Shown: piece by piece, positions 6,160 to 48,430 of the stretch
Numbering within the stretch: the stretch's first letter is position 1
How the letters are laid out: each line of letters begins with the position of its first letter
NCBI GenBank assembly: GCA_916610825.1
Contig: OU744446.1
Span: forward strand, 7,156,309 to 7,220,308
Length of the DNA: 64,000 nucleotides
From: Haliclystus octoradiatus
Lineage: Eukaryota; Cnidaria; Staurozoa; Stauromedusae; Haliclystidae
Direction: 5' to 3'
Program-made: the position numbers and the translations under genes
The notes under the pieces: generated by a model
Seen by the model: the letters and a program-made list of their open reading frames with translations, nothing else
Databases searched by the model: none
What the model was told of the DNA's origin: nothing

Positions 6160-9001
6160 TCACGCAGATGCCACATTGAAGTATCCTTCGCCACATCCAA
6201 TTACTTTATCAGTTGCTGAATCTCTGATAGTTGCTCTGGCCCAGTAATGACCCTGGTAAAAAGAGTGAGAATAATATATATAATTTGAAACGTCTAATTT
6301 TATCCTGCTGCAAACGGACATAGGATTCTCTAATCACACTAATCACATTTCAATGCTTAAATCAGGTGATCTTCATTCTAAAAAGATTAAATGATTCCTA
6401 GCAAGTTTATTGGTTGTGATGAGTGCTACTAAGCTGCTTCTTTGATGGCATTCTTTCATGATCATGCACTACATCTTTGCGACCATACGCAATATGTCGC
6501 TACATCTTTTCATGTTGTTATTGTATCGGATCAGAAGGACATGTTTACCGAAAATCGCATGATTCAAAGGGATGAAAATGTTTTGATAGACCTGCTCCAC
6601 ATGCCCCTGTACTCCACTTTATCAACGACTGTTTCGTATAGGGGTCATGTAACTTTTTATTGAATGACGTGATGCACATGCGCTCTTTACAGCAAATCAG
6701 AATGACCCATCACAGTTTAGCATGTGCGACTTTAGGAGGTGATTGGTCTATTTTCTAACTCCTGAAATTATTGGTGACGTCTTCTTTGTGAATTGAATAT
6801 GCGTTGAAAATGATTCGCACATCATCTCATATGTAACTGACACCCATTTGTCTCAAGTGGTCTATTTTATTGTGTTTAAACAATGGATGACACAACATTG
6901 GCAGTGTATCATTCTATTTGCTGAAATTTTACAAAATCCAGAGGTACAGTAGCGAAATAGCGGGTCTTGTGGAGCTGGACTAATGTTTTCACGCTTTTGG
7001 TGATCCAAAAGCTGACGATTATGCTGTATTGAGATAATAACATGAAATTATACTCGGGAAACTATTGACTTGTGTTTGCATATATCCTTCTAGAAAAGTG
7101 CACGGGTTGATGTGCTTTGTCATAATTTACCTGCACTCAAGATGTTTGGAGACATTTTGGGAGTAAATCACGATGAAGCACAGTACCCCGTGCATCATCT
7201 TTTATTGAATTGTGGTCAATGACGGTATTGAATATATTTAGGCTGATCCTGTTGATAAAGGCCACCTGCTTACAGAGTCCAGAAAAACCTCAAGTCTCAA
7301 CCTCAATACTAAATTTGAACCTCAATTAAATGGTTTTATTGCTTACGATTTCACTCAGCCAAAACCTTAAACTTTTACTCTGATGTTATTTTACATTAAT
7401 TAGATAGGATTTACTTACGTTCTGCATAAAAGATGGGAAGTTCAGTGTTGGCAGTGAAACCTTAACGTCGTCTACGTCATGACTTCCAACTGGTAATGGA
7501 CATTTTCCAACATATCCGTATTTATAAATTTCATCACAACCGACTGTATAGGTGCTGAAAATACGCAAATGCATTGCGATAAGAAATACAGCACAATACG
7601 ATTATCACGATGATTCGAATCTAACATTAATGGTAATGACAATGCAGGTTTCCAATTGTTTTTGCGGAAACATTCAATCAATTTATCATGCAGACATTTT
7701 TATCTGAATTATATCAACTAATTTCAACTTACCAAGAACCGAATCCTAAAACGCAAAACACTGGTATCCAGAATAGCATATCTTTTTGCAATTCAACTTT
7801 CACTTTGAAGGATGACCCGATTGGACGTTTAACAACAGCCGTTAACTTGAATTTCAGTTCTGTGCCTTTACTGATTACGATAGGATCTGGAAAGGACCTC
7901 ATTCTTATTTCAATGGCATTGTTGGACCCTAAAAAAAAAGTCAAATTGTGATTAATCGTCGATATAAGCTTTGTTGAAACCGATAAGCACTGAGCTGAAA
8001 TGAAGTAGGAGGAAAACATGATTACTAAGTCATCCATCTAACGAGATAATCAACATACGCTGAACGATGTGATTGATATTGTAACTACGATGTAATGAAA
8101 GTATAGTACATAAATACGACTCAAAACATACTTCCTCATCACATGGGCATTGTTGGTGAGATGTACCATATTAACCTAATTGATCTCTGGACTTATCATT
8201 AACAGCAGCTCACGACAATTGATAAATAGTACATGTATGTACCTCTATAGGCGTAACTGCAGTTTCTTTTATGCTCGGGTTTATCCATAACAGACACGAA
8301 CTTATAAATGAAAAAATGGCTGGGTGCGTCAGTAAAGCGCCACAGAACTAAAACGGCAGGTTTCTCCGGGCAACTTGAAAATCACATAAAAGTGTTCATA
8401 AAAATATGCTGAACAATTCCCTATTTCTTGTTTCAATTGATTTTCATCGTAAACCCTTCAAAAATATTTATAGTACATTCCTCCAATTTATATTTCATGA
8501 TTCACGGTCAAAGCCTTCTTATCGTTTTGAGAATATGCTGCATGTGAGCTTCTTTGATTCTTTTGTTCTCCCAAGATTCTGCAAATCCATATATAGAAGC
8601 ATGACGAATTAAACACGAAATATACGAATTAAGAGGGCTCTGACCGTGAAATGGTTTACAAATTCATCGTTGGTGAGCTCCACAATAATATTTGACTAAA
8701 ACATTTTGTGTGAATTTCAGATTGCCTGGAGAAACCTGCCGTTTTAGATACGTGGCTCTCGGTCTATTATAATATAATGCTCTTCTATATGGATGCGTGA
8801 GTTTCTCCCAATTTGGAGTTCAGAGTATTGAAATCTATGCATTGATAGTATTTAAGGAAATAGTTATGAATAATTAATTTGACATTGTGATTATTATATG
8901 ATTCTATTAATGTTCATGTGTAACTTACCACACGTAGTGAATGTTGCTGCGTTACAGCTTGCACAAAACGCTGCTATAGTGACGAATAATAACTTATACA
9001 T
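6160..9001 (-). CDS. GM2 activator-like ML-domain protein, copy 2 (complete, 165 aa)
   Basis: Complement of 8929-9001, 7733-7928, 7419-7554 and 6160-6252 (73+196+136+93 nt, 165 codons plus stop). Splice sites are GT/AG with phases 1, 2, 0. Start ATG at 9001-8999 opens a signal peptide (MYKLLFVTIAAFCASCNA), probably cut after residue 18. The mature protein has cysteines at residues 24, 83, 90, 96, 108 and 155; mammalian GM2 activator has eight, so the disulfide set is reduced. It differs from copy 3 at about 18 of 165 residues and carries WIPVFC where the other copies have WMPVPC. By family it should be a secreted or lysosomal lipid-binding cofactor of the ML fold; the ligand is unknown. It is divergent to copy 3 and convergent to copy 1. 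A MITE lies in intron 1. Confidence 0.93.
8337..8758. mobile_element. MITE in intron 1 of GM2A-like copy 2
   Basis: Inverted ends: 8337-8385 reads GCGCCACAGAACTAAAACGG and continues into CAGGTTTCTCCGGGCAA; the reverse complement of the right end (8710-8758) gives GAGCCACGTATCTAAAACGG followed by CAGGTTTCTCCAGGCAA. The arms are about 45 bp with a few mismatches. I could not define a target duplication. The interior is AT-rich and non-coding. Confidence 0.75.
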
Positions 9002-9064
9002 GTTGAGTTTTTGGCTTGGAGATCAGTCTTTCGAGAATAATAAGCTGAATTCAAAAGTAATCTG

Positions 9065-9073
9065 TATTTATAG
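9065..9073 (-). promoter_or_regulatory. TATA-like box of GM2A-like copy 2
   Basis: CTATAAATA on the minus strand, about 64 bp upstream of the ATG. The following sequence (AC.GAT..., TGAATTCA, TTATTATYCTCGA) aligns with the region upstream of copy 3, which also has an ATAAATAC element at the matching place. A start site about 30 bp downstream would leave a 5' UTR of roughly 35 nt (inference). Confidence 0.5.
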
Positions 9074-9099
9074 GTATTTTGTAGAAGCTGTTTCGTAAG

Positions 9100-12000
9100 A
9101 AAATACGATAATAGCGTCAGAATATGCAACTGAATAAACAATTAGTTTGTTCATGGATGTGATTGGTGTTTTTTAATTTCAATTCGATCATCAGATATTA
9201 TCACGGTAGAACTAAAACTTGAAATCCTATATGAAGTTGAAAGATATTTATAAGATCTTAATAAGGATTACCAAAACTTAAACAGTGATATTGAATCATC
9301 AAGAAGTTTAAGATGGTTTAAGATTGTTAAAACACGTTTTGAGGCGAGATGAGATTGTTTTTAGAATATTGCTATCAATGACTGTCAGTAACTGAAATCT
9401 AGGAACTAGAATAAGGAATAAGGATACCATTTTGTTTTTAATTATCTATTCAATGTTACTCCTGTATCCACTATTGAACACTACTATCTTATATCTCAGT
9501 ATTTTGACGATGAATATACTTTTATTGCATTGTTAATGCTTCTAAATCGGAGTAGGTTACAATTCGCTGTTGTGCAGCATACTGCTTGATGAAATTCGAT
9601 CCGAAATAGATATAGTGTCAGTAGTATATATTCTCTGATAGAAATGGACTAACAGACTTAAGAAGAAAGAGATAACTACAGTCATACCCTTCTCGTGGTA
9701 TTTGATATTACATCCTATCTATTGTATTCTCAGGTCGCTTATGCATAATCTTAAGAAATAAAAGTTAAAAGTGTCATGCTGCAAGAAAAATCTTCCTTCA
9801 TTCAAGGCATTTATGCTGAAAAACATAATAATGTCAAGAAAATTTGTACTTATATAATAATGAGCATATATTACAAGCAAATTTGTAATAGGGTAGGAAT
9901 ATTTTCTGGCTATGCGGACATTATATGAACAACATCATCTATATAAGTTAATTTACTCTTATTTCAGGCATATATAATTCCATTTATTCCATGAATTTTG
10001 ACTTCTTCTTGATTCAAACATCTTCATACTCTACTCCTATACCATTGGCCGTGCAAGTGCATATTATATTTAAATTTATTATAATTCTTTCAAATTGATA
10101 ATCAACTTCATTACATTAAGTTGCATGTTATAGAAAAGAAGAGTTCCTTATATACCTATGATGCACTTGTTAATGACTTGAGCACTGATATAATATAGCA
10201 CCATCAATAAACAGCTTTTGGTAATTAAATAGAGCGTAATTTTACTTGAAATTACTTTATATGTAATAACACAAACAACATTTGTCTCCAGCGTTTCAAA
10301 GTTCAAATTATATTGACATAATCATCTATGTAGGTTTCTTTTTCAGTGCTATTATAGTTAATGATAATTCTTTTATTATCTTTATTGTTATGTAATAGAG
10401 CCTTAATTAAGATTCTTGAGTTGTTGTCTTATCCTCATCTGTATTTGTTTTACAATAGCACCTGAGGTAATGTTGACTGCTGTTACTTTATTAATATACT
10501 ATTGTAAAATCGATGTACTGCAGAATATGCCTGTAAATCGTTTTCGTACTCTGAGACCAATTGTATAATGACCTGCCTACCTCCATCAAAAATGTAACAG
10601 AGCCATTTGCATTTCTTAAATTTTTTGAAACTCAATTTTAGCCAGTAAATACATAAACATGTGAACATAATAATTCCACGATTTTGCCTTGATTTGATTC
10701 CTAATTTTAAAAATATTACCATTAATTTATGCTTGTATATATAGAACAGATCAGTAGACCATTCTATTATAGATTGTATATATAGTTTATTTAAGTTATA
10801 AGATTGTATTTGTTTTAAAACGGGACATACATTGGCAACAGTGATACATCTCACTGACCTGTTTATCCTGTATAATTTTTCGTAATAAATAAAAATAAAT
10901 AATATCAATGTAACTGTATGACACGTTTTTTGTTCCTAGCAAAGGACTCATCAGAGACCTTTCTGATATCGTAGGTCATCAGACATCAGACACCTGAAGT
11001 CCTGCTAACGAATAATAATGGATGGTGACAATGTGTATATGTCTGTTGTTGTATTATTAATTTCATATGAACTTAAAATATATGAATGAAAATTATAAAT
11101 AGCCACATAGGAATTCTAGATTCTCACTTTTCATGGTATTCATGTAACTTGTGATATTTCCATGTGAAAACATCTGAATGATTAAAAGAAATAACATTAC
11201 GAAACAATCCCTGTTTTTGACAGATTATTATTATTGAGCTTTCACCCCTGATTATTCGACTTATAAATTATTATATAATTATAAATACTCAGTACCAAAC
11301 ATTTATTTCATCATTCATCACACGTTGTGTACTTATCTGACGATATATTGATAAACAATTCCAGCAACAACAACAACAAGTATAACCGTTATCATAATGT
11401 ATTCAGGAACCTGTTCAGCTACAATCATTTTCAATTCATAACTATAGTTATAATTCTCGAAATAGATGCTTAATTTAGCACCAATAAATTTTAAATACAC
11501 TGTAGTATATAAAATGAGCACGGTTATCATAGTGTTGATGCGAATGATCTATTCAAGCAGTTTTGAGCGATAAATGATACATCATACATTTTTACCATGT
11601 ATTCTGTTCCAATTGTGATTTTGACTGATCTATAAGAATGTAATTTTGAAGCCAGCAATTTGATTTACAAATGCAGTCCATAATCCCTTAAAAAATGTTG
11701 TGTAGTTCATCTAAATTGTCGGGTTCAATTATAGTATATTCTAGATGAACATATATGATAGATTGTGACCGGAAGCTTTCTATTTCTGGGTTCCAAGAGA
11801 GGGAAACATCGGCTTGAGATATGTTTCTGTCATTAATATTTTTATGCTCAATGCCATAGTGATGTCAAGGACGATTGAATTCCTGTCCGACGATTTCAAG
11901 AATTTCATAATTTTTATCTTTCTTCCACGCCCACCTCTATTCATTTTAGATATCTTTCTTCTCCATGACAGAATGGAGTTGAAAATTACTTAGATAAACT

Positions 12001-14880
12001 TTATGACTGGCTGAGAATTGAATAATACTGCAAAAAGTATTTTCAATAGTAATTATAATGTCTACAAACCATTTCAAAAATTTAATTGATGTTCAATATG
12101 TGTTGAGAATCTGAATATGAAGAATTTCCTCGAAAAATGAGAAGACTTTTGAATAAAAATGTTTGAAGAATTCCTTTGGATTAACAAATGGATATAGACG
12201 CAGTAAATAGTGCCATCAATCCTGAATTTATTAAACCTATAGATTTAGAAAGTTGAAGGCTCGTTAGCGGACTGAATAGAACTGCGGGTAACCGCTAGCC
12301 TCTTGGAATCAGAGTTGGATATTGACATTTTTACGTTTATGTGCGCTTTTCAGAAATTGAAGAGGACGGTAATATTTGACAGCAATTCAGTTTTCAGTCT
12401 CGCTCGACCCCAGCCTCATTTCCTCACGGCACTTCATCAGTGAAGGCGTAACAAAACCGGGGCTTATAAGAAGCTGTAATAAATATAAATATTGTGTGCT
12501 CAATCACAGCGCACCTGCGTATCACGTGGTATATAATTAGCCGTTGGATGACAAACCCGTTGAAGAACAATTCAACGAGGAGTGAACAAAAATGGAAGCG
12601 AAATTTGATTCCAACATTTTTTAAACAACTGACAAAGCAGACTTGAAACATTTTGGATTTAACTATTGAAACATGGTTGAAATAACAAAATAGAACAAAT
12701 ATCGTGCATTACATGATCGTTTAAATGATTTGTTTGATTATTCTTGAAGTAGAGAGAGCAATAATAAGAGGATAAGACGAAGTAAATATCACATGTTTGA
12801 CGAAGCGATCGCTATCGCTGGACAATTGAAAGCACATGTTTCGGTTAAGTTCATTTTGAAGAATCCACTCTAACGAAAATACCGAATATGAATTCTCCAA
12901 AATTTAATAAGTTAGTATAATTTTAAATATGGACAATACGACAGAATAAATAGTCGATCAAATATATTAAATAGATGATTCAAGCAGGTTTGTTTACATA
13001 AAAACCTTGGAATTTTATTCACGAATTTTATTATAAAACTTCGCGTGACACCTATAGATGCGTTTTGATTGGGCACGCCATGACAATATTTTGGTTTATG
13101 GAGGGTTTAAATGTTTCAACCACCAGCTTTTCCTGAAGCTCAGCGTGGAAACGAGAGACTTTCAAGAATAAGGCCTGTGAAAACTTGTCATCATACTTAA
13201 TATTCTAGTTTTAACATTGTATAGTCCTCGTTTCTGTGTTTGTAATAATTGATATCGAGTTGTTATGCAGTCATTAAATTGTTGAACGTATTCGGACGCT
13301 TTCTCTTTGAATTTAATAATTAATAAAAGTCGTAGTTTGGCCATATATATATACGACAGATCAGAGACTTTAACATTTCAAAAATTTCATTGTAATACTT
13401 CAAATCTCATGTCTTATCATCTCATCATCATCACTTGAATGCTGGTGTATCATTTTATAAGGACTCCTCCTTGAACAATTACTGCCAAGTCTTAATAAAT
13501 CGGAGAATAATTACTCCTCCAGTCAACATATATTAGATAATTTGAGCTTCCCGCAGGGAATAGTGACGACCTTGGAAAAGTATTTGAAATTTCCAATGGC
13601 GTCATTGTATTTTCCAGTGAATAATAACTCCCCAGTCATTATTAGCCAATGAAAAGACTCCCAATAGGCCAGTCAGCACATATATTCTCTAGGAAATGAC
13701 AAATTCCCCTATTTTATATTGATATAAATTTCCTATGAATATTTTGTTTTAATTATAATATATCTAGTTTTCTATAGCAAGGATGATAAATTATTCTGAA
13801 TCTAACTGTGCAGAAATAATGATATTTTGCAATAGAAACTTCAAATTGACAGATAATAATGTGCAATTTGCTGAACTTGGGATGTTGATTAATTGTTAAG
13901 ATTGTTGTTTAGTGAGTTAAAAATAAAATGTATAAAATCTAATACTGCATAATGTCGATAATACATTTTTAGATCTAGATAAAAAAAAGGAATTTGTATA
14001 GGAAGAAATAAGGGTTGAAAATGGAAATATAATGTACTCAATATTATCAAGACAATATAATGGGAACTAAGATATAAGTGCAACTCAACTTTGTGTTTTC
14101 AAGAGTTTTGAAAAGATAATACTAATTTTTATCATACCTATATGCGTAAATAATCCAGCTAAAATGTAATTATCATTTCAAGCATTGAAAATATTTCACA
14201 AAAATTTCGACGTTATCAGAAAAACGTATTATTTTTCGTGCAGAATTATTAAAAAGAGGGCCTGGTTTTCGATATTTTTAGACCTTCTTGTTTGTTTGCA
14301 AAAAATGTGTAAATTTTGGAATCTGAAAAAAGGACTTGGGCATCTGTCTATGTATTACTTTTCTTTCTCGATTTTGAGTAACATTCTGCTGGAGCTTTGT
14401 CAGAGATTACGATTTATTTCGGTGCGTTTTACACGAATGATATTATTTTTAAATCTGAAATAATGTTATAATTTGCTTTAAGCGTATACAAATGTTTCTG
14501 GCTATTTGAAATAATTATAGTTTGTATACAAATTAATGAAATTAATTTCAGTATGCTGTGACCTTGAGCAAGTATATATGCACAGAACATCTCCGAAATC
14601 CCATACGATATTGCTCATATTCTTCTATGATATTTCACTTGATATTCAATTCATGGTCCCATCTTAGAATTTAGGATTTCGTAATCGGCCTTGAATATTT
14701 CTCAATTTCTTAGAACTTTTCTACTGCAGAATTTAGCTGTGATAATATCCGATGATTGCAATTTCAATACAAACAACAATCAGCATTTTATAAGACCTTT
14801 TTCAAATAAAATCTGTTTATTCAGTTGCTTTATTCTGACACTATTTCAGCATTTTGCTGACGAAACAGATTTTACAAATT
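9100..14880. other. AT-rich intergenic spacer between the divergent GM2A-like genes
   Basis: About 5.8 kb with no recognisable gene, tRNA or transposon end. The longest open frame (10483-10908, minus, 141 codons) is Ile/Leu/Lys/Tyr-rich and looks like a chance frame in AT-rich DNA. The 13440-13700 part has a few repeated ACTCC and CAGTCA words but no clear unit. Confidence 0.5.
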
Positions 14881-20265: not shown

Positions 20266-21099
20266 TGCGACTGTTCCTTTGTGACTAGTCTAGTGACACA
20301 TATTAGTTACGTATTCTGTGTGACCGCAGTACTTCTCAAATCTTAATTAGTAGACACGTACCCTTCAAAATAGCTTGATCTTACTCTATATAAGTTTTAA
20401 CTATTTTTAACTCTATGATCTGCAAGTTGTTCTTGAGTAAATATTTCTACAGGATATCCTTTCCATGATCTAAATGTGAATGTAAACTGACTTGATTTGC
20501 AAGGGCATGCACAGACGACTTTTCCTCGAGATAGTTGGTACTGCAAAGTATTAATTGTACTTTTTCGGATTTAATTAAGTATTACTAAAACATTAAATAG
20601 ACATTCTTCAATTATCATTTCAACGTTTAAGTTTGAAATTGATGTTTGTCTAGTAAAGCTTAAACCATGTAGTCGTATAGTTTATACGACTGTATAGATA
20701 GATATTTATACTCAATAGTCTAACAAAGTGTTCATCGTTAATTCACCAAGCATTCAATATTTAAAAAACCATTGGGAATTCTTCAGTACATTACACTATA
20801 AAATTCTATAAAATATCGGAAAATAGTACGATTACATGTTTTAATGAAGAAAAGTTTTATGTAGAAAATTTTATTTTTGCGATTTTCTACGTGAAATTTC
20901 CACGATAACCGCCATTTTGTAAATTTTTCTACGTTAAACTTAAAATTTTCCCGCGCGAGAACAATAAATAACACGCGCGATTTTTAAAATTTTCTCGAAG
21001 AGTTTATGTAGAAAAGCGGGAAATGTCTAAATAAACAATTGAAAAATGACTCCAATAAATGCGCCACGTCGTTTTACTCTGTTATCATCTACCATTGCT

Positions 21100-22860
21100 T
21101 TGGGTAAACTCATCGGGAAACATTTTCCCCTTTAACCTCATCGGGAAACAAGCCGATATTCTTTACTATTAACACGTATAATTTAATCCAAACAAATTCA
21201 TGGTTAATAACTATAATTCGTAAGTAGTACTTCATATAAAGGTGCATCAGTATAATACCTTTCTAAAATGCACAAAAGTTCGCATCTTTACGGGTTTTAT
21301 CATCGACTTCTCAATTTTCCTCATTAAACTTATTTGTACAAAAGCCGATATTCTTTACTAATAAACACGTATAATTTAATCCAAACAAATTCATCGCTTA
21401 ACAACTATAACTCGTAAGTAATACTTCATATAGAGGTGCATCAGTATAATACCTTGCTCTAGTGCACAAAAGTTCGTATCTTTACGGGTTTTTTCATGGA
21501 CTTATAGATTTCCTCATTAAACTTATCGGTACAATAGCCGATATTCTTTGCTATTAAACTTATCGATACGAAAGCCGATATTCTTTGCCATTAAACACGT
21601 ATAATTTAATCCAAACAAATTCATGGTTAATAACTATAATTCGTAAGTAATACTTCATATAAAGGTGCATCAGTATAATACCTTTCTAAAATGCACAAAA
21701 GTTCGTATCTTTACGGGTTTTATCATCGACTTCTCAATTTTCCTCATTAAACTTATTTGTACAAAAGCCGATATTCTTTACTAATAAACACGTATAATTT
21801 TATCCAAACAAATTCATCGCTTAACAACTATAACTCGTAAGTAATACTTCATATAGAGGTGCATCAGTATAATACCTTGCTCTAGTGCACAAAAGTTCGT
21901 ATCTTTACGGGTTTTTTCATGGACTTATAGATTTCCTCATTAAACTTATCGGTACAATAGCCGATATTCTTTGCTATTAAACTTATCGATACGAAAGCCG
22001 ATATTCTTTGCCATTAAACACGTATAATTTAATCCAAACAAATTTATGGTGAGTAACTATAATTCGTAAGTAATACTTCATATAAAGGTGCATCAGTATA
22101 ATACCTTTCTAAAATGCACAAAAGTTCGTATCTTTACGGGTTTTATCATCGACTTCTCAATTTTCCTCATTAAACTTATTTGTACAAAAGCCGATATTCT
22201 TTACTAATAAACACGTATAATGTAATCCAACAAATTCATCGCTAACAACTATAACTCGTAAGCAATAATTCATATAGAGGTGCATCAGTATAATACCTTG
22301 CTCTAGTGCACAAAAGTTAGTATCTTTACAGGTTTTATCATCGACTTATTAATTTTCCTCATTAAACTTATCGCTACAAAAGCCGATATTCTTTACTATT
22401 AAATACGTATAATTTCATCCAAACAAATTCATGGTTAATAATTATAATTGGTAGCTAATACTTCACAAATAAGTGTATCAATAGAATACCTTGCTATAGT
22501 GCACAAATGTCCGTGTCTTGACCGGCTTTATCATCAACTTATTAATTTTCCTCATTAAACTTAGGCTATCAGGATTTTTTTACTACTGAACACTTGTATT
22601 TCAATCCGATTTTAATCAAAACAAGTAATTTAGAAATAGCTATAATTGGTAGCTAATACTTCCGTTTCTTAAAGGGATTTTTCATCAACTTATCCATTTT
22701 CCTGATTAAACTTATCGGTTAATTCCCTATCGCGATATTCTAAGTCACTATTTATCACCTGTAGTTTAATCGAAGCATTTAATTTATGGAATGATTATGG
22801 TAAATAACTATAATTGCTAGTTATTACTTCACTTTTCTACTTAAATCCGATACAGTCTAA
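21100..22860. repeat. Left terminal tandem array of the foldback element
   Basis: About nine degenerate units recognisable by CCTCATTAAACTTAT at 21319, 21512, 21742, 21935, 22165, 22357 and 22550, with a variant at 22701. Spacings alternate 193 and 230 bp, giving a 423-bp higher-order unit; the longer one contains an extra 38-bp duplication of the GATACGAAAGCCGATATT segment. Units are inverted relative to the array at 28.4-31.5 kb. Confidence 0.9.
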
Positions 22861-22869
22861 AAACTACAT

Positions 22870-23940
22870 TTACAGATATGTATTCATCGGTAATGCCTCA
22901 TTCTAATTTCAGAGACGTATAAATTTTGGAGAAAATGGAAGACCGGCATTTTGAAAAACCCTAAGATACAACCTAGATCAACTCCATTGGCTGTATCTAA
23001 TGATAAATACATGATGTATTTTCAAAAATCTTTTCCATTGTCTCGACTACACATCTAAGAACTATATATAATAATATATCCATTTATCGTCATCATCATC
23101 ATCATTTATTCAGAACTTGAATAAGCTAAAAGCTTTTTTTCACAAGACTGATTGGATAGACCTACTACAAGTTGGAGAAAGGGACAACCTGCAATGTGAG
23201 GAACCCTAAAATGCTACCTACAGCTTGAATGGAAGTATCTATATAAAAGCAAGATATATTTTCATGAAATTTTTAACTTGTCTTGATACACATCTAAGAA
23301 CTACACATAATAGCTTTATCAAGTCACCTGCATTTCTCGTTGTCATTTGAGAGAACTACAAGTATGTGAACATTTTTTTGAATAATTTTTAACCTAGTTT
23401 TGTGACGTATGGAACTATCGCGAATTAAAATCTTCTTGCATATTAACCAATATGCACCTTCATCTATATCTGAAAAAAATATTGTTAATCTTATATAATT
23501 TCATACGTAAGGCACATTTTTGCCAAAGGCAGATTCTTTTTTGAAGGACACAAACGAACCAACAATTGGTAACTTTATTGGTGGCAAAACATCAATAGAG
23601 TGCTAGATGCGGATATGCAGAGCATTATAGAAAGAAATGCAAAAAACTAGACGTTGTCAATTGTTATTTAATGATATGCATGCCTCGTTCTGATATAAAA
23701 GATCTAATACCCAATGAAAAGAAAAAAATGAAAAACCAGCATTACACTAAAATAAGATATACCCCCATATGGACTTTAAATGACTGTATCTGAATAGAAA
23801 CATAATATATTTTCATGAAAGCTTTCTAAATACGATGAACATCTATACTAAGAGCATATATAGTGGTATGGAGTCATCCGCACGCCTCGTTCTGATTTGA
23901 GAGACCTACAAGTTGGAGAAAGTGAGAAAACCATATTGGT
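22870..23940. repeat. Central tandem repeats of the foldback element, left part
   Basis: Diverged units share TCATTCTAATTTCAGAGAC / TCGTTCTGATTTGAGAGACC, a TTGGAGAAAGTG word and CATCTAAGAACTA. Related units in the same orientation occur at 27480-28330, so the centre was probably one array later split by retroelement insertions. Confidence 0.6.
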
Positions 23941-25212
23941 ATTACGCGGTTTGCAAATATATTAGCTACAGTGTTATTAACAGGTAAATGCCTTTGATAT
24001 AATTTCTGAGAATGTCCTCTAGTTTTGGTTTTGTGAGAGGCAAGAAACATTTCTTTTTTTAAATCAACCATTCCATTAACAACTTTGTAAACCATACATA
24101 GATCGGCGTAAATTCGCCGAACTTCTAAAGAAAGCCAAACCTAGCATCTTAAGTCGAGTACAATAATCAGAATTATCAGAATTTGAACATTTTCGGCATA
24201 CGCGTTTTGTAAATCTCTGTTGAACTTTTTCTATGCATTTAACATCTTTTAATAAATAAGGACTCCATACTGGCATGATACTGGTGAGTTAGACTCCAAT
24301 ATAGGACGTACATACGTTGTATAGGCTTTTATTAGACATCTATGGTCTTTAGAAGAGAAACAGTTGAATATATATATATAAGGTAAGATGCTGAATGAGC
24401 TTTACCAGCGATATTAGCATAGTGACTTGATGACTTTTAATCAGAACATATAATAACACCAAGATCTCTAACTTTATCTATTCTAACAACTTCTTCACTA
24501 TTCAGATAATATTTGCTTATGGATAAGTTCTTATTTCCAAAAGAGATAGCATCGCATTTTTCTATGGCGATTTGAAGTTGCCAGGCATTTGCCCAATCAC
24601 AAAAAGCGTCAAGCGTGTATTGGAGTGCATTATCGTCTGAGTTAGTGTAACGACCAACTGAAAATTTAGCATCAGCAGCGAAAAGTTCAACTTCACAATT
24701 CTGCTTTAAACAAGAATCAATGTCATTTACATAAATTAGAAACAATAAAGGTCCCAAAACAGAACCCTGCGGTACCCCGCTAGTAACATTTATTGATGAC
24801 GATAAAGAATTTCCAATAACTACTTGTTGCGAACGACCATTTAAATAGCTTTCTAACCAATTCAAAAGCTCAAAACGTATGCTTTGAGTTTTGAAAGTAA
24901 TTTTGAATGAGTGACAGTGTCAAATGCTTTTTTGAAATCTATATAAACTGCATCTACTTGCGCTCGTATGTTGATCACGTCACACCATTCATTGATTGTT
25001 AATAACAACTGAGTACATGTAGATCTTCGGCGAAAAAAACCACATTGCTTGTCGGTGATAAGATTATTACTGAGAAGAAAGCAAAGTAATTCATCGTGTA
25101 GACCTTTTTCCATTACTTTACAGGCAATACATGTTAGAGATATTGGACGATAGTTCTGTTTCTTTGATGATAGTCCCTTTTTATAAAGTGGAATGACTAG
25201 AGCGGTTTTAAG
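23874..25212 (-). pseudogene. Non-LTR retrotransposon reverse transcriptase, remnant 1
   Basis: On the minus strand from 25212: VIPLYKKGLSSKKQNYRPIS, then KQCGFFRRRST, VDAVYIDFKKAFDTV, a 1-bp frameshift near 24870, SGVPQGSVLGPLLFLIYVND, LFAADAKFS, KVRDLGVIICSD, then after further stops and shifts RPILESNSP, WSPYLLKDV..IEKVQQRFT and TRGHSQKLYQ. This is a CR1/Jockey-type RT with a C-terminal region. The catalytic ADD motif reads AAD, so even apart from the frameshifts the enzyme would be inactive. It is truncated at its 5' end next to the (ATATG)n tract. Confidence 0.92.
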
Positions 25213-25225
25213 GATATATTATGAC

Positions 25226-25293
25226 ATGATATGATATGATATATGATATGATATGATATGATATGATATGATATGTTGTTGTTGTTGTTGTTG
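25226..25293. repeat. (ATATG)n then (TTG)n microsatellite
   Basis: About ten ATATG units followed by about six TTG units. It lies between retroelement remnant 1 and the 3' region of remnant 2, and may be the 3' tail of remnant 2 or an older satellite target. Confidence 0.95.
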
Positions 25294-25552
25294 TCACTTT
25301 AATATCAATATACCCAATTTTACAGGATGTGTGATAATTACATAATTAAGTTCTATTTATATAACATATATGTATATACAATATTTATTTTATTTATTTA
25401 TTTATTATTATTATTTTTTTACAATGATAGTAACTATTAACAATCCTAATAAAATAACTGACCAATTATTACAAATCTGGTATAATATGTGATAATTATT
25501 AATTATTCTACCATTGTTTAATACAACCAAAATATAGTATAATCTAATATCA

Positions 25553-25576
25553 TTTTTTTTTTTTTTTTTTTTTTTA
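25553..25576 (-). repeat. Poly(T) tract (poly(A) on the minus strand)
   Basis: A T-run of about two dozen bases some 60 bp beyond the stop codon of retroelement remnant 2, consistent with its poly(A) tail. The sequence between this tract and the ATATG repeat is AT-rich with ATTT repeats (about 25385-25415). Confidence 0.8.
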
Positions 25577-25634
25577 ATATTTTATAAGCCTCTTGCACGA
25601 TAAGAATTGAGTACAAATGCCCCAAGAACATTGT

Positions 25635-26400
25635 TCACGATAGTAGGTGGATCCGAGAATAAGAAGTGAATCTTTTCTTCAGTTGTCGACGAGCTAAAAC
25701 TACTATATACATTCTATTTATTGCATTATAGAAGGATATCCTATTATTATGGTTTGAAGAACAGAAAAAGAGAAGATGAATTTCGTCATCAATATCATCT
25801 TTGTTGCAAACTGGACACAGGAGATCTTCGTATGGGATACCAATATGGCGTCCTGTTTGTACAGTTAATTTATGAGAACTTACTCTCAGTTTAGTTAACG
25901 TTATCCTAGCTTTTGTATGAGGTATAAGTAGGCAGTTTTCGATTTGAAACTTTGATTTAATTTTTCGGTAAAAGTTCAATTGATTAGAGTTTTGATTAGC
26001 GGAGAGATTATTTTCAAATAATTGAATAAATTTATGCGTCAAATCTTGCTCTACTGCTTTTATAAATAAGTTTTGAGAAGTCAAGGTTGATAAATCCTTA
26101 TTGCAAAGGAGTGTAAAATCAACTCCAACTTCTCTCAAAATATTTTTGACATTTGCAAGCCAAGTAAGGGGGGAACTATCTAAGACTTGTTCTCCAAAAG
26201 CTTTATATACTAGTGAATTTTGATCAGAGTTTAACAAATGAATACAGTATTTAATTATTTTAACTTTAACATCGATATTTAATGGTAATAATGCTAAGTC
26301 ATCGCGTATCGCAGTCAGGGTAACATTCTTTGGTGCATTTAGCATACTACGCATTACTTTTTTTTGAAAGGCTTCTAATGGGTGTGATATGTTTGTATGT
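25635..26400 (-). pseudogene. Non-LTR retrotransposon ORF2 C-terminal region, remnant 2
   Basis: An open frame of about 255 codons without internal stops: AFQKKVMRSMLNAPKNVTLT, ALLPLNIDVKVKII, then KARITLTKLRVSSHKLTVQT, GRHIGIP and CPVCNKDDIDDEIHLLFFC. The last part is the Cys/His knuckle typical of the C-terminus of non-LTR retrotransposon polyproteins. The RT domain is absent, so this is a 5'-truncated copy. It starts at a TATG microsatellite (26392-26412) and is followed by a poly(A)-like tract. It is the least decayed retroelement fragment here. Confidence 0.88.
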
Positions 26401-26589
26401 ATGTATGTATGTATTTTGTAGCACAATGGCTAACAGGCAAATAAACAAAGGAGGATATTTTTAAATGTATCCTCACTTACATGTGACCTTTAAAAAAAAG
26501 TATATATATATAAAGAAAACTATGTTATCAGAAATAATTAACAGGCAAAGGAAAAGTTACAGAACTGTGATAAATTAACGTGATTAAGT

Positions 26590-27000
26590 ATAAATTTGAA
26601 TGTTTGTAAAGAATTAGACGATAACTTCTTCAGGAAGAGAGTTCCATGGCTTGATTATTCTATTTGCAAAGTAATGTTTGCAACAGTCATAGTTAAATGA
26701 TTTAGTTGGGTACAGCGTCAGTGAATGTCCACGCAAGGAATATTTGGAATATTTAATAGTGAAAAATTCATCTGGAGCCAAGTCAATCAAGTTTTCAAAA
26801 TTCTGAAGACCATGTGAAGATCAAACTTAAGGCGGTGTAATTCTAGAGACTCAAGGTTGAGGTAGGTAAGATGATCTACATAGGGCTTGTAAGAATTATT
26901 TTTCAAACAAACATATCTTGTGAAAGAGCGCTGAACATTTTCTAAAATATTTATGTCCTTGATGAGATAGGGATTCCGAGATATTTAGGGATTCCGAGGG
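26590..27000 (-). pseudogene. Non-LTR retrotransposon RT C-terminus, remnant 3
   Basis: On the minus strand: YLIKDINILENVQRSFTRYV, LNLESLELHRLKFDLHMVF, then after a frameshift LIDLAPDEFFTIKYSKYSLR, GHSLTLYPTKSF and CKHYFANRIIKPWNSLPEEV. It matches the region after the RT core of remnant 1 but is a separate, diverged copy. It ends at a second (ATATG)n tract. Confidence 0.85.
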
Positions 27001-27007
27001 ATTTAGA

Positions 27008-27063
27008 GATATGATATGATATGATTTGATATGATATGATATGTTATGATATGATATGATATA
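27008..27063. repeat. (ATATG)n microsatellite, second tract
   Basis: About eleven ATATG units with a few substitutions, directly adjoining the 5' truncation of retroelement remnant 3. It mirrors the arrangement at 25226-25275. Confidence 0.95.
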
Positions 27064-27684
27064 TTTTGTCATTTTGTTGAATCATAAATAATCATTATAT
27101 TTTGTCATAAATCTAAGGTTTCTAGTTAAAACATGAATATGACCCTATCATTTATTAATTTGTTATATGCATAAATACCGTATATGACATATAGCATCAG
27201 GTTAACAACTATGAATGTAAAGATATGTATCTATACATTAGCTATGTGATGTAATACTATACGACTGATTAAATTATCTATATAATAACTTTGCAAAATG
27301 ATGACAAATTCAATGATCGTAGATTCTCCTTGAATTGAGCAATAGTTTTTGATGTAAATATCACCCGTCAGATTGTTCCACCAGGGTATTATAGGGTAGT
27401 ATTAACTTGGATTATCTATTGATAAATCTACAAGGTTATGCCTGATGTCAATATCAACCTAGATTGCTGCTAGTAAATATAGACTTGATATTTTTTAATC
27501 CTGTTTTTTTAAATCACTTCGATACATGCCTGCGTATGATATACTATAACAGCGAATTAATAGGGAATTGTATCGGCGGTTATAGTGTGAAAGACATTTA
27601 AAGTCGAAAAAGTGAAAAACCAGCTTTTTTTTCAAATTCTGAAAAGTGGTGAAATTACACTTAGGTTGACCTAGATTGCTGCTA

Positions 27685-27884
27685 CAGCGTAACTCGCTTA
27701 AGTGCAAGTCAAATTTGCCAAAGGTTTTCATTGCATTTATCCGAATTTGCAGTTATCCGAAATCGTTTACCAAGGAAAAGACTCAAGGAAAAGACCAGAA
27801 AATTGTTTTTAACAGGTTTCAAAGCCAATTTGCAAATAAGCGGGAATTTCATTTATCCGAATTGCACATAAGCGGGTTACACTG
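27685..27884. mobile_element. pogo/Tigger-like MITE (200 bp)
   Basis: Inverted ends CAGCGTAACTCGCTTAAGTG (left) and CAGTGTAACCCGCTTATGTG (right, reversed), flanked by TA on both sides (27683-27684, 27885-27886). The neighbouring repeat units have the uninterrupted site GCTGCTAGTAAATATAG. It also contains internal ATCCGAA words near both ends. No coding frame. Confidence 0.9.
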
Positions 27885-28150
27885 TATAGTAAGTATAGAC
27901 TTGACATTTTTTAATCCAGTTTTTAAAATCACTTCCATACATGTCTGCGTATGACATACTAATATTAATAGTGAATTGTATAGGCGGTTATAGTGTGAGA
28001 GACAATTAAAGTCGCGAAAGAGAACAAACGGCTTTTTTCAAATTCTGAAAAATGGGTGAAGTCACAGGTCAACCTAGATTGCTGCTAGCTAGTAAATATA
28101 GACTTGAATTTCTTTTAAATCACTTCGATACATATCTGCGTATGACATAC

Positions 28151-28204
28151 CATAGTTTATAGAGACAAACCCTATATTACCAGGGTTTGTCTCTATAAAC
28201 TATG
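28151..28204. mobile_element. 54-bp perfect hairpin insertion
   Basis: A palindrome of 23-24 bp arms (CATAGTTTATAGAGACAAAC, then CCT) around the loop ATATTACC. It is flanked by the 7-bp direct repeat GACATAC (28144-28150 and 28205-28211). Sister repeat units at 27535 and 27945 lack the insert and have a single copy of the flanking word. Confidence 0.85.
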
Positions 28205-28431
28205 GACATACTAAAATTAACAGTGAATTGTTTCGCCGGCTGTGGCGTGAGAGCCATTTAAAGTCGAGAAAGTGAAAAACCGGCTTTTTTTTTTAATTCT
28301 GAAAAGTAGTGAAATCACACTTAGGTCAACCACTTGATAAAGACTTGATAATTTTCCGTAGTCATTTCACAATAGTTTGTTTTGATTAAATTACACAAGT
28401 TTAATTTTGAAGAATATCGTACGTGATAGGC

Positions 28432-31400
28432 AACCGATAAGTTTAATGAGGAAAATGAATAAGTCGATGAAAAAGCCGTAAAAGAGACGAAATTTTGTGC
28501 ACTATATCAACGTATGATACTGATACACCTTTGTGTGAAGAATTAGCTACAAATTGGAATTTTTTCAAAATGACTTGTTTTGATCAAAATCGGGGTAAAT
28601 TACACGTGTTCAGTAGTAAAAAATCCTGATTTGAACCGATAAGTTTAATGAGGAAAATGAATAAGTCGATGAAAAAACCCTTTAATATACAAACTTTTGT
28701 GCATTATAGCAAGGTATGATAGTGATACACTTTTGTGTGAAGAATTAGCTACAAATTTGAGTTATTTCAAAATGACTTGTTTTGATCAAAATCGGGGTAA
28801 ATTACACGTGTTCAGTAGTAAAAAATCCTGATTTCAACCGATAAGTTTAATGAGGAAAATGAATAATTCGATGAAAAAGCCGTTTAAGATACGAACTTTT
28901 GTGCACTATAGCAAGGTATTATACTGATACACATTTGTGTGAAGTATTAGCTAGCAATTATAGCGATTAACCATGAATTGGCGTGGATTAAACTACATGA
29001 GTTTAGTACTGATCAAAAAATCCTGAAATGAACCGATAAGTTTAATGAGGAAAATGAATAAGTCGATGAAAAAACCCTTTAATATACAAACTTTTGTGCA
29101 TTATAGCAAGGTATGATACTGATACACCTTTGTGTGAAGAATTAGCTACAAATTGGAGTTATTTCAAAATGACTTGTTTTGATCAAAATCGGGGTAAATT
29201 ACACGTGTTCAGTAGTAAAAAATCCTGATTTCAACCGATAAGTTTAATGAGGAAAATGAATAATTCGATGAAAAAGCCGTTTAAGATACGAACTTTTGTG
29301 CACTATAGCAAGGTATTATACTGATACACATTTGTGTGAAGTATTAGCTAGCAATTATAGCGATTAACCATGAATTGGCGTGGATTAAACTACATGAGTT
29401 TAGTATTGATCAAAAAATCCTGAATTGAACCGATAAGTTTAATGAGGAAAATGAATAAGTCGATGAAAAAACCCTTTAATATACAAACTTTTGTGCATTA
29501 TAGCAAGGTATGATACCGATACACCTTTGTGTGAAGAATTAGCTACAAATTGGAGTTATTTCAAAATGACTTGTTTTGATCAAAATCGGGGTAAATTACA
29601 CGTGTTCAGTAGTAAAAAATCCTGATTTCAACCGATAAGTTTAATGAGGAAAATGAATAATTCGATGAAAAAGCCGTTTAAGATACGAACTTTTGTGCAC
29701 TATAGCAAGGTATTATACTGATACACATTTGTGTGAAGTATTAGCTAGCAATTATAGCGATTAACCATGAATTGGCGTGGATTAAACTACATGAGTTTAG
29801 TACTGATCAAAAAATCCTGAAATGAACCGATAAGTTTAATGAGGAAAATGAATAAGTCGATGAAAAAACCCTTTAATATACAAACTTTTGTGCATTATAG
29901 CAAGGTATGATACTGATACACCTTTGTGTGAAGAATTAGCTACAAATTGGAGTTATTTCAAAATGACTTGTTTTGATCAAAATCGGGGTAAATTACACGT
30001 GTTCAGTAGTAAAAAATCCTGATTTCAACCGATAAGTTTAATGAGGAAAATGAATAATTCGATGAAAAAGCCGTTTAAGTTACGAACTTTTGTGCACTAT
30101 AGCAAGGTATTATACTGATACACATTTGTGTGAAGTATTAGCTAGCAATTATAGCGATTAACCATGAATTGGCGTGGATTAAACTACATGAGTTTAGTAC
30201 TGATCAAAAAATCCTGAATTGAACCGATAAGTTTAATGAGGAAAATGAATAAGTCGATGAAAAAACCCTTTAATATACAAACTTTTGTGCATTATAGCAA
30301 GATATGATACCGATACACCTTTGTGTGAAGAATTAGCTACAAATTGGAGTTATTTCAAAATGACTTGTTTTGATCAAAATCGGGGTAAATTACACGTGTT
30401 CAGTAGTAAAAAATCCTGATTTGAACCGATAAGTTTAATGAGGAAAATGAATAAGTCGATGAAAAAACCCTTTAATATACAAACTTTTGTTCACTATAGC
30501 AAGGTATGATACTGATACACCTTTGTGTGAAGAATTAGCTACAAATTGGAGTTATTTCAAAATGACTTGTTTTGATCAAAATCGGGGTAAATTACACGTG
30601 TTCAGTAGTAAAAAATCCTGATTTCAACCGATAAGTTTAATGAGGAAAATGAATAATTCGATGAAAAAGCCGTCTAAGATGCAAACTTTTGTGCACTATA
30701 GCAAGGTATTATACTGATACACATTTGTGTGAAGTATTAGCTAGCAATTATAGCGATTAACCATGAATTGGCGTGGATTAAACCACATGAGTTTAGTACT
30801 AATCAAAAAATCCTGAAATAAACCGATAAGTTTAATGAGGAAAATGAATAAGTCGATGAAAAAACCCTTTAAAATACAAACTTTTGTGCATTATAGCAAG
30901 GTATGATAGTGATACACCTTTGTGTGAAGAATTAGCTACAAATTGGAGTTATTTCAAAATGACTTGTTTTGATCAAAATCGGGGTAAATTACACGTGTTC
31001 AGTAGTAAAAAATCCTGATTTGAACCGATAAGTTTAATGAGGAAAATGAATAAGTCGATGAAAAAACCCTTTAATATACAAACTTTTGTTCACTATAGCA
31101 AGGTATGATACTGATACACCTTTGTGTGAAGAATTAGCTACAAATTGGAGTTATTTCAAAATGACTTGTTTTGATCAAAATCGGGGTAAATTAGACGTGT
31201 TCAGTAGTAAAAAATCCTGATTTGAGCCGATAAGTTTAATGAGGAAAATGAATAAGTCGATGAAAAAGCCGTAAAAGATACGAACTTTTGTGCACTATAG
31301 CAACGTATGATGCGGATACATTTTTGTATGAAGTATTACTCACGAATTATAGTTATTAACGATGAATTTGTTTGGATTAAATTAATCGTGTTTATTAGTA

Positions 31401-31560
31401 AAGAATATCGGCTATTGTACCGATAAGTTTAATGAGGAAAATTAAGAAGTCGATGATAAAACTGTTTAAGATACGAACTTTTGTGCACTATAGCAAGGTA
31501 TTATACTGATGTACCTTTATATGAAGAAATAGCTATAACGATTATGGTTATATTGTGATG
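28432..31560. repeat. Right terminal tandem array of the foldback element
   Basis: Sixteen units begin with the ACCGATAAGTTTAATGAGG word at 28432, 28634, 28836, 29031, 29233, 29428, 29630, 29825, 30027, 30222, 30424, 30626, 30821, 31023, 31225 and 31418. Spacings are 202 or 195 bp. The 202-bp type carries GACTTGTTTTGATCAAAATC; the 195-bp type carries TAGCGATTAACCATGAATTG. For most of the array they alternate as a 397-bp higher-order unit whose copies are nearly identical, so amplification was recent. Confidence 0.95.
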
Positions 31561-32404
31561 GTTAATCATTTTCGACATAAACTTATTCCTGGATTGTGAA
31601 ACTTTCCGATCTAATCCCTACTGTTTCACACGTTAATTATATTCGTTGCAAACTTCGTAGATTCAGTATAAATGATAAGAACATGTTCATAAAGTTTAAT
31701 CGATATTTATTAATTCGATGAATCAATGTAGATTCTCCATTAACTATGTTTTTGAGTTGTTGTTATAATAAACCGCATTGATTTATATTATTTCCTGCAT
31801 TTTGAAAAAAAATCGCATTTTTACGATATTTTTCCGCTTTTCTCTATTAAACATTTTTCAAACGCGGCGGATTTTTCGGCGTTAAACTTTTCTTCATTAA
31901 ACTTTTCTACATTAAACTTTTCTCCATAAAGACAAACTTCGAAATAGTACAAACATGATAGAGGACTTCGGACGTTCTTATTCAAGTTTACAGCCATGTA
32001 CTACAGCCACTAGAACTACAGTAATGCAGATTCTATCATTTGTCGGTTTTGCGGTATATCTTCATTGCATAAATTATTATCCTCTCTATCAAAGTTATAT
32101 GATTAACAAAATTAGGGTTTTGCAATGTGAAGTCTCGTTCCTTATTTTACATACGCCACAAAATTATTTTACCAGTCTAGTAATCATTCCTTCGGCTAGA
32201 AAGTAGAACATGTTAGCATCATGTCGTCACAATCTGTAGTTTATAGGATGCGGTAATACAGTGCAGAAGTTACTTTGCACAAAATACCTTTCTACAGAGA
32301 CGAGAAATCAGATGGACAGATTTCACTTCTGTGAAAAGAGGACTATAAAACCGACGGTTATGGTGTTCTTAATAGCGTTTCCCACCATACATTATGATTT
32401 TTAC

Positions 32405-39056: not shown

Positions 39057-42000
39057 ATGTCGACAAGACCTCGAAAAAGAGCATATCGACAACGCGTCAA
39101 ATGTAATAAATGTTCGAAGGAGATTGATTCTGACTATCAAGATAAACATGCTAAACAACATCCTGAATGCACTGTTAAGTTTACGGTTGTGGTAGAAAGT
39201 AATCAAACTTTGCTTAGCGGAATTTTTTGTAATAAAGCAACTTCTCCCGGAACAGGTAATTCAGCAACAGAAGAAATAATATCCACTGCTTGCTCAAATG
39301 ATAATGAAGCACCTGAAGAATCACATATGGAAACAGGTACGTACGTTGATTGATTGCTCAATTGGTTTACATTTAAATTAAAATACTTTGTTTAGTTTAA
39401 TAGTGTTTCCAACTTTCCACTGGCAATACTATTCCCCTTAAAAATGCTGATATGTTTTGATTTCTGGCTTTTGCTAACGAATAAGCTATTAAACGGTTTT
39501 TCAGTTTCGTTTTGCACAGTATAGGGGTAGCAAGCCAGTAACTTATTATTGTAAAAGCATCTTTATGCAATCAATTCTCCTATGAAATAATCTCGCTTAT
39601 TAAGTGACGGGGATAGTTATGTTCATTGAACATCTGAAGGTATTGCAATAAATAAGTTTATACATGATAGCACATTAATAGATTGCCTAATGATCTGACT
39701 ATTTTCAATACTATGGCACGCTCTGCTACATAGCATTGAGCACTATCTATTAAGCAAAGTATTACAGCACATATATATAGGGAACATTGAATATCATTAT
39801 CCCAATTAAAATAGTAAGTGCTATAATATAACTGTGATATTGTTTCTAGATGTGGAAGGTTCAGTATCAAATATTTCTACCAGTGAATCAGACGATGATA
39901 TGAATTGCAAAGAGGATACATCTTCCGATGTTAATTCCAGTAAAGATCGTTTTGTATCGCAAGTTGATGACAGTGCTAAAACTAAAACTGTACAGTCAGA
40001 TTATTACTTTTCGTCACCGTTTCAACCATTGCAAAACCAATATAACCCAAAGATATATTCGAAAGAAACTTATACAAGAGATTTTAGCAATGAATTGTAC
40101 AGATTATATTCTTGGCTTACCTATAAGAGCGAGAACAAGAATTTTCAGTGCTTTGCATGCAAAAAGTTTATGGGGGATGACTCGTTTGAATATGAAAACT
40201 GGAAGAAACCTGAGCGACTTAAGAAGCACGCAAAAAGCAGAAATCACCAGCTGGCAATGGCGAAATGGATATGTGTCATTGCAAAAAAATAAAACATCAA
40301 TTTTGCAGAAGCTAAATGAATCACATCGTGAGAAAGTAGCTAAAAATCGAAGTTATTTGAAGATCATAATTGAATGTCTTCTCTTTACAGCACAGCAAAA
40401 TATTGCACAAAGAGGTCACGCAGAAGAGAGAGAAAATTTAGACTCTGTATCGGATATTAATAGGGGGAACTTTTTAGAGCTTTTGCATTTGCGATGTAAC
40501 GACATCTCATGGCTGTCGCAAAAGTTAAAGACCCAACTAAATGCGCATGCACAGTGGACATCCCCTGACATACAGAATGAATTGCTCCAAATCATAGCCG
40601 ATTTGTTTGTGAAAAAGATTTCTAGCGAAGCAAGAGATAGCAAATCAACGTCAATCATTGTAGATGAAACATCCGACATAAGCAGAATAGAACAGGTATC
40701 AATTTGCTTGAGATATGTCTTCAATGGGCACACAAAAGAATCTTTTCTTGGATTCTACAGTACATCCTCAACTGAGGGTGAAACGTTGTACAAAATTGTT
40801 AAAGATGTATTTATAAGATTGTCCTTGGATATGAAAGATGTAGTAGGAAAGTGCTCTGATGGTGCAGCTAGCATGAGTGGAATCCACAAAGGCCTATCGA
40901 CAAGATTAAAGGAAAGTTCGCCTTAAGCTGTGTATGTTCACTGTTATGGGCATCTGCTTAATCTTGCTATCCAAGATGTTTTAATTGATATCAAGCCACT
41001 GAGAAATGCACTAGGAACAGTGAAAACAATTTATAACTTCCTCGAGGCAAGCCCAAAGAGACACGCCCTCTTCAACAGCACAAGCATGGAGGGACAAGTT
41101 TTGTGCCGCACTCTAAAATCTCAGAGCGTCACACGATGGACATGTAGATGGGAAGCAGTCCGGGCAGTAATTGGGCAACTGCCAAACATTATCCAAGCAC
41201 TGCTTGTACTGACAAATGACAAGGATAGCAAGATATATTCAGAAAGTCGTTGCTTGCTCACGGCAATAAGTGATTTTAATTTTGTAATTGGCCTTATCAC
41301 CCTGAAAGTTATTTTATCAAACACAAGCAGCCTTAGCCAATTTCTGCAAGGGAAGAGGGTAGATGTCATCACTGCCAAGAATACAGCTGACGCGACCATA
41401 ATGACATTAAAAAAATGCAGAACAGAAGATTCTTTTGATCTTGTATGGAAAACTGCAGAAAATCTGACTACAATAATGATGGAAAAGCTTGAAGGCACTG
41501 AGTTTTCTGTTAAAGCTGCTAGATTGCCGAGGACTAAACAGCCTTCTCGACGGTCGCAAGTATTGGTTGGAGAGTCTTCTTCTGTCTCTGATGCCTTGAT
41601 CTATGAATCACCAAAAGATTACCATCGAATTGAAACATTCTATCCAAGTATGTCTCGTGCTGTATCGGAGCTCGAATCAAGATTTAGTAGCAACGATCAA
41701 AACATTCTATGTTCCCTTGGTGATGTTATTTTTAACGAGGAGCCGCAGGAGAAAAGTTTTGACGCAGTCTGTAGCCACTACGGTCTAGATAGAGATCTTC
41801 TGAATTCAGAAAAAAATATCAATACCAATTATGCTTTAATGGATGGAAATGAAAACAGTTAGTTGATTACTGGTTCAAAAATTGTACAAGATATGTATGA
41901 TGCTGGACAAGATATTGTACTTCCAATTTTTTACAAAGCTGCGCAAATACTGGCAACTATACCTGCGGCATCTTGCACAGCAGAAAGATCATTCAGCAGT

Positions 42001-48080: not shown

Positions 48081-48360
48081 AGAAAAATATGCTAGATAAA
48101 TTGGTCGAGGTCATAAAGCCAGATGCAGATTACTGTATAAAACAACAAGAAATGTATACAGCAATCCTGAGGAATCTCTAGAAATATAAACATATTTCTG
48201 GATTAGTTACCGGATGCTTCTGTAATTGAAGTAATTCAAAAAAAGAAATGCTAAAGAAATTGGTCAAGGCCAAAGCCAGATGCAGATTACTGTTTGTTGT
48301 TAAAAAAAACAAGAAATGCATGTACACTAATACTGTTGAATCTCTAGAAATATAAACACA
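48081..48360. repeat. Tandem duplication, period about 159 bp
   Basis: Two diverged copies offset by about 159 bp (48091 and 48250 are equivalent positions), both ending in TCTCTAGAAATATAAACA. Confidence 0.8.
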
Positions 48361-48430
48361 TTAATATAACATATAAACACATTAATATAACATATAAACA
48401 CATTAATATAACATATAAACACATTATATA
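48350..48430. repeat. 22-bp tandem repeat, about 4 copies
   Basis: Unit ACACATTAATATAACATATA plus AA, nearly perfect. Confidence 0.9.

Follow-up and report, generated by a model that had tools for sequence, protein, structure and literature searches.

The window, a stretch of 64,000 nucleotides from Haliclystus octoradiatus (C1:7156309-7220308), harbors a complete copy of a foldback transposon of 11,112 bp (20830-31941, plus strand), which was delimited by its tips genome-wide and by pairs of target-site duplications (TSDs). The element sits between two identical plus-strand copies of AAATAGTAC at 20821-20829 and 31942-31950, which represent the left and right TSDs, respectively. A sequence-only reading of the window had placed a foldback-type element at 20821-31950 with a 9-bp word at its outer edges; this word is an exact repeat, and the span, comprising the element and both 9-bp copies, is correct to the base. 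Going inwards, each asymmetric tip is followed by the 15-bp tip words and a unique terminal domain, behind which come a tandem array, the inner domain and a centre that holds retrotransposon fragments. The left tip (20830-20868, plus strand) starts with the asymmetric GATTACA, followed by two 15-bp tip words, and the right tip (31880-31941, minus strand) starts with the asymmetric CGAAGTT, followed by the 15-bp tip words GAAAAGTTTAATGTA. The outermost 7-9 bases are unlike between the element ends (GATTACATG versus CGAAGTTTG), and a 37-bp alignment with 32 of 37 positions identical (counted by hand) is common to both tips at an equal offset from either end. The left unique terminal domain (20830-21120, plus strand) spans ~290 bp, and the query that covers it (20821-21120) has at least 40 genome matches, 28 of 40 starting at query position 8-10, where the duplication ends on its inner side. 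The right unique terminal domain (31536-31941, minus strand) spans 406 bp, with at least 46 genome matches for the 415-base query 31536-31950; both counts are lower bounds, as 40 candidates were scored for each query (40 of 43 for the right one).

Two tandem arrays form the arms of the element. The left array (21121-22720, minus strand) carries the anchor ATTTTCCTCATTAAACTT, opposite in direction to the tip, and the right array (28431-31535, plus strand) is composed of 202/195-bp units with 16 anchors; the unit length in the arms is ~197 bp. Tandem Repeats Finder reported periods of 192-230 bp with a higher-order period of 423 bp for the left array (21124-22563), and a period of 202 bp with a higher-order period of 397 bp and a score of 4427 for the right array (28431-31535). 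Each arm is an inverted copy of the other, with a best alignment of 71.9% over 1,796 columns (E 0.0). These long terminal inverted repeats, made of tandem direct repeats as in foldback elements, bear out the architecture and the opposite array orientation first proposed, but the left array measures 1.4-1.6 kb instead of 1.8 kb, and the centre ~5.7 kb instead of 5.5 kb. With at most three mismatches, the anchor AAGTTTAATGAGGAAAAT is present 16 times on the plus strand and seven times on the minus strand of the element, one of the seven lying in the right tip, and has no occurrence in the other 52.9 kb of the window. Each array unit carries AAGTTTAATGAGGAAAAT or a near match, which is a version of the tip word AAGTTTAATGAAGAAAAG reversed relative to the tip of the same arm. 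Anchors of the window copy are spaced by 202 or 195 bp on the right, with 193 bp at the outer end, and by 192-193 or 230 bp on the left, with 151 bp at the inner end. Alignment of the units between arms showed 94% identity at columns 144-162 and full identity at columns 1-18, the latter biased by the choice of units through that very anchor (at most three mismatches).

In the centre, or middle domain (22721-28430), there is no match to MULE, and none of the open frames was recognised as encoding a transposase, in line with the earlier claim that no transposase lies inside. It contains on the minus strand a passenger reverse transcriptase fragment (24437-24919; Pfam RVT_1, E 8.5e-12), which we read as non-LTR-type and which recurs in other long copies. 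A 264-aa open frame without Pfam match (25635-26429, minus strand) may be a LINE C-terminal fragment; as it comes before the reverse transcriptase piece when the minus strand is read, the pair resembles two independent insertions. The inner domain has direct repeats in families of 117, 55, 38 and 20 nt (27454-28368). Inside one of these repeats sits a 56-bp palindrome (28150-28205) with perfect 24-nt arms and 8 nt between them, which is found in nine of 12 copies and which we read as an insertion with an ACATA(C) duplication. At element position 3102-3104 (window 23931-23933), eight of the 11 fetched copies (C14a, C14b, C2a, C7, C5, C10a, C10b and C2b) have ~250 extra bp with the flanking 3 bp aligned twice, resembling a small insertion with a short duplication; this extra segment is absent from the window copy, C1b and C6b, and C6a is devoid of the whole region. 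In the C14a copy (L041), an extra stretch at 6544-12533 of the oriented copy is a nested transposon with ends GAGCGTTTTCCTCT, THAP/DDE_Tnp_4 and YqaJ/PHD/Ulp1 genes and, by our reading of the junctions, a TA duplication, which we take to be of type ISL2EU. These genes of the C14 copies were rejected as the element's own transposase because they belong to the nested element, and so was a 1,924-aa Pao-type frame in the C7 copy, which is a nested retrotransposon. The Pao-type frame fits an animal genome, as such elements are not known outside animals. Outside the element, the window also contains a transposase-like gene of several open frames (39810-41862), with Pfam DUF4371 (E 4.5e-16) in one of three frames scanned, and tandem repeats at 2515-2910 (31 bp, 12.8 copies) and 48350-48432 (21 bp, 3.9 copies).

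A search of the 261.9-Mb assembly (33 contigs) with 28-base tip patterns, allowing three mismatches, revealed 36 left and 25 right tips, compared to no match genome-wide for the same patterns read backwards. The sequence-only reading had let its case depend on a second copy with the same termini, and many are present. The interior was read for 12 copies, namely the window copy and 11 fetched ones, two of the latter representing one duplicated site. Dispersed as foldback copies are, they are 2.6-16.8 kb long and variable in arms and interior. Pairwise divergence of the 12 left ends over 294 bp has a median of only 1.0% (range 0-2.0%), which indicates that the amplification is recent. The longest match of this kind to the window copy, 98.7% over 10.7 kb, was found for the copy at C1:5061338-5076646. 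Paired tips are 0.2 to 37.6 kb apart, ranging from a copy of 203 bp on C11, with GGGAATGCA on either side, to the copy C1c, which has a matching TSD; a copy on C2 measures 18.5 kb.

Further analysis of the 12 copies showed that the right arrays have 2 to 37 anchors, and that the outermost right spacing is 193 bp and the innermost left spacing 151 bp in every copy. Such constant end spacings, while the array length varies, are as expected if change occurs inside the array. When 86 units of 202 bp were compared across 11 copies, leaving out the duplicate C14b, the divergence was 3.1% within a copy versus 3.3% between copies, and no concerted evolution of the arrays within a copy was seen in this set. 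As the units are hardly more alike within than between copies, array changes appear to be recent or to proceed without homogenising. Altogether, the copies are nearly identical at their ends, and array length and interior vary freely.

Further copies with target duplications, which the sequence-only reading had proposed to look for, were found: an exact TSD of 8-9 bp is present in 15 of 20 tip pairs, or at 14 of 19 sites if the C14 site, duplicated with identical flanks, is counted once. Among the first 13 paired copies, 11 have an exact TSD (six of 9 bp and five of 8 bp) and two have none; of five further pairs, C2c, C1c and C2d (two of 9 bp and one of 8 bp) as well as C11 have a TSD and one does not. 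The five pairs of the 20 without a TSD are C10b, C8 outer, C8 inner, C2e and the C4 composite. As a control, none of 154 mismatched end pairings reached 8 bp. Counting the first G of the element would extend the repeat to nine bases in four of the 8-bp copies (three sites). A TSD of about 9 bp is that of foldback elements, and it falls within the 8-11 bp that define the Mutator (MULE) superfamily in the available part of the source (PMC6446971). The C1 tips at 37840385 and 37878020 have TACAAAAGG on both sides, indicating that these ends, 37.6 kb apart, most likely moved as one element; ~1.9 kb at the right end of its interior was read, and part of the 37.6 kb may have been added later. An inverted tip pair of 3,126 bp at C8:7673800-7679900 (L061) has no TSD and sits within another copy's right array. 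At C4:15215600-15215760 (L073), a complete left tip is immediately preceded by a 24-bp left-tip fragment with GTCACAGAG on either side of it, which resembles the trace of a repair that was aborted once an element had been excised.

Empty counterparts, of paralogous kind, were found with joined flanks for two of 10 sites among the sequences examined. The joined flanks of C6b match neighbouring short-period satellite units uninterrupted over 141 bp (98.6%); as the TSD word recurs in every satellite unit, the C6b duplication carries little weight by itself. For C14a, window 56508-56599 aligns to the joined flanks at 84.5% and continues past the junction, a single base of the duplicated word being different. 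This stretch of the window is a copy of the dispersed repeat that received the C14 element. Overall, the element spans GATTACATG to the complement of CGAAGTTTG, integrates as a single unit and causes an 8-9 bp duplication of the target. The ends, the duplications and the empty sites together point to cut-and-paste movement.

The sequence-only reading had placed the mobilising enzyme elsewhere and had proposed to look for an autonomous relative with a MULE-type transposase. A MULE domain search of the genome gave 85 matches, none of them in the window element, and no MULE is encoded by any of the 12 copies read. The claim is thereby upheld as far as a MULE inside this copy is concerned, and the proposed MULE identity of the enzyme rests on the 8-9 bp TSD and on published relatives. 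Compared with all tips, two of the 85 matches lie within 20 kb inside a tip (3.2 kb on C1 and 8.0 kb on C4, a left tip in both cases), against 0.4 expected by chance, and none lies within 20 kb outside a tip. The two MULE-bearing copies have a common junction at element position ~412, from which they continue into a 119-bp tandem family. In the C1 copy (at 13.26 Mb), this array is followed by simple repeats and then by a different MULE fragment (E 3.2e-07), with no FLYWCH match in the three frames scanned and no right tip listed nearby. Since the MULE genes of C1 and C4 lie behind a foreign 119-bp array, they are taken as candidates and not as the proven cognate enzyme. Neither the 12 copies read nor the comparison of the 85 MULE matches with the tips yielded a clean transposase gene in an autonomous copy. 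The search for MULE genes beside a sister tip family (words GAAAAGTTTTATGTCG), which is repetitive with 1,429 first-look candidates, led nowhere; by eye, among those of its 146 places that were listed, the nearest MULE matches flank C11:7611769 at distances of 12.7 and 13.3 kb.

The element is probably a non-autonomous foldback DNA transposon whose cut-and-paste movement depends on an enzyme provided in trans, most likely a transposase of the Mutator (MULE) superfamily, an assignment resting on duplication size and on analogy with Tetris and Tm1. We propose that this enzyme would recognise the 15-bp tip words as putative binding sites. The arrays with their reversed tip word might function as extra binding or tethering sites that join the ends, even when these are tens of kb apart. 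The enzyme would then cut the element out and paste it elsewhere, and unequal exchange or replication slippage may alter the array length between moves, with other transposons gathering inside as passengers.

Without any mobility, long inverted arrays can also form as chromosomal palindromes or satellite arrays when a chromosome is rearranged or a segment duplicated, and the two C14 copies are indeed one duplicated site. This origin is refuted by the TSDs and empty sites: identical ends at many unrelated sites, site-specific duplications of 8-9 bp and two empty sites reduce its probability to practically nil. Another possibility sees the autonomous source in the C4 element, which spans 31.9 kb between its tips at 15187687 and 15219601 and whose single-copy ZSWIM-type MULE and Ulp1-like/PHD frame would move the whole family. 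NOF plays the like role for Drosophila Foldback. This copy was read up to C4:15200000 and from ~15217800 on, together with 161 bases at 15215600. Both of its ends are divergent family members (92% on the left and 86-90% on the right), and its 119-bp array is followed by the Ulp1-like/PHD frame, with Peptidase_C48 at 3.7e-04 (just at the cut-off) and PHD_2 at 2.3e-05 (below its cut-off), and by a MULE gene in several frames (L062:2020-7078), which we read as exons. An open frame of 315 aa in this gene matches MULE with E 3.2e-17 and ZSWIM1-3_RNaseH-like with E 7.3e-30, and the gene is without close copies in the genome, the other matches being 24-36% identical and the best-scoring one 28%. However, from position ~412 the copy belongs to a different repeat family of 119 bp, which is also found without foldback tips at eight other listed places, the flanking words are unlike (TTTAAAATG versus ATCGTGGCA), and an adjoining frame was read as gypsy-like. 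Moreover, ZSWIM1/3 are also host genes in animals. We regard C4 as the source of the family as quite improbable.

The same non-autonomous foldback element might instead be served by another cut-and-paste enzyme, of the P/Galileo, Merlin or hAT type. Duplications of 8 bp occur in the P/Galileo, Merlin and hAT superfamilies; a TSD of 8-9 bp also fits superfamilies other than MULE, and the cognate MULE is not proven here. For Galileo, the available part of the source describes a foldback architecture that arose in an element with a P-type transposase (PMC3688188). On the other hand, a TSD of 9 bp was found in six of 13 pairs, in two more and in one further pair, a size common for MULEs in the accounts available to us (PMC3169594, PMC6446971), and an enzyme of these other types is given only a minor chance. 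A foldback transposon mobilised in trans by a MULE transposase is the reading we prefer.

The 119-bp tandem array defines a second family (L019:1913 onwards, L062:1-1830 and L063:600-1475). Its presumed tip, placed from the start of the between-copy similarity, has TATTTCCACGC forward along with one reversed word, and the array word GCGTGGAAATA is present in L062 in 26 reversed and no forward copies. Each of these two families of the genome has a short tip word that points forward at the tip and recurs reversed through the array. In addition, a repetitive family with tips CACGATTGGCTATTACGTCGAAAAGTTTTATGTCG (L064-L066) follows the same tip-word logic. Speculatively, and with little confidence, arrays of reversed transposase sites could have evolved convergently as a means for DNA transposons tens of kb in length to synapse and move. 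If true, arrays that act as end-finding machinery would relax the usual length penalty of DNA transposons.

The present family is young and well delimited, with tips 0.2-37.6 kb apart, matching TSDs and empty sites, and its natural copies with 2 to 37 units allow the long-standing question of the role of foldback arrays to be tested. The family further illustrates how transposition can disseminate satellite-like arrays in a genome, as already brought up by Tetris.

Foldback (FB/NOF) of Drosophila and TU of sea urchin have a 9-bp TSD and inverted arms built from tandem repeats. Galileo has a TSD of 7 bp, compared to 8-9 bp here, and the Phantom paper is reportedly that of Marquez and Pritham. 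The architecture of the element is already known by analogy: its layout is that of Tetris, and its tips are of the Tm1 kind. To our knowledge, the sequence family is new, and the sequences suggest the same for the large size range and, in two families, for a tip word that points forward at the tip but is turned round in the array. As far as the available account goes, Tetris, a foldback transposon of Drosophila virilis with an 8-10 bp TSD and ~220-bp arrays, has a terminal domain, ~220-bp tandem repeats and an inner domain in the same order, and a 37-bp stretch is common to its array units and its terminal domain (PMC4079207). Its transposase was not found in that account, and a MULE was inferred as the mobilising enzyme on grounds like those here (PMC4079207). 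Compared by description and not by sequence alignment, the present element differs from Tetris in the 15-bp tandem words of its tips and in arm length, which reaches 37 anchors (>7 kb) in one arm compared to 1,735 bp at most in Tetris (PMC4079207). Beside the proposed role of the arrays as extra transposase sites we set Galileo, a Drosophila element of the P superfamily with foldback-like long arms, in which, in the portion of the source available, two of four arm repeats have extra sites for the THAP domain that are bound in vitro, although its transposase is P-type (PMC3688188). The Mutator/Foldback family Tm1 of Meloidogyne, as covered in the available part of its description, resembles the present family in its outer motifs, which are asymmetric, 7 bp long and succeeded by tandem words mostly of 14 bp, in its TSD of 8-10, mostly 9 bp, and in its several size classes, including MITE-like ones (PMC3169594). 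Its elements are ~1.1 and 2.6 kb long, and that part describes no ~200-bp arrays in them (PMC3169594). Unlike the present family, for which no MULE copy is proven, Tm1 has an identified one, as a Phantom-type MULE was found between similar tips (PMC3169594).
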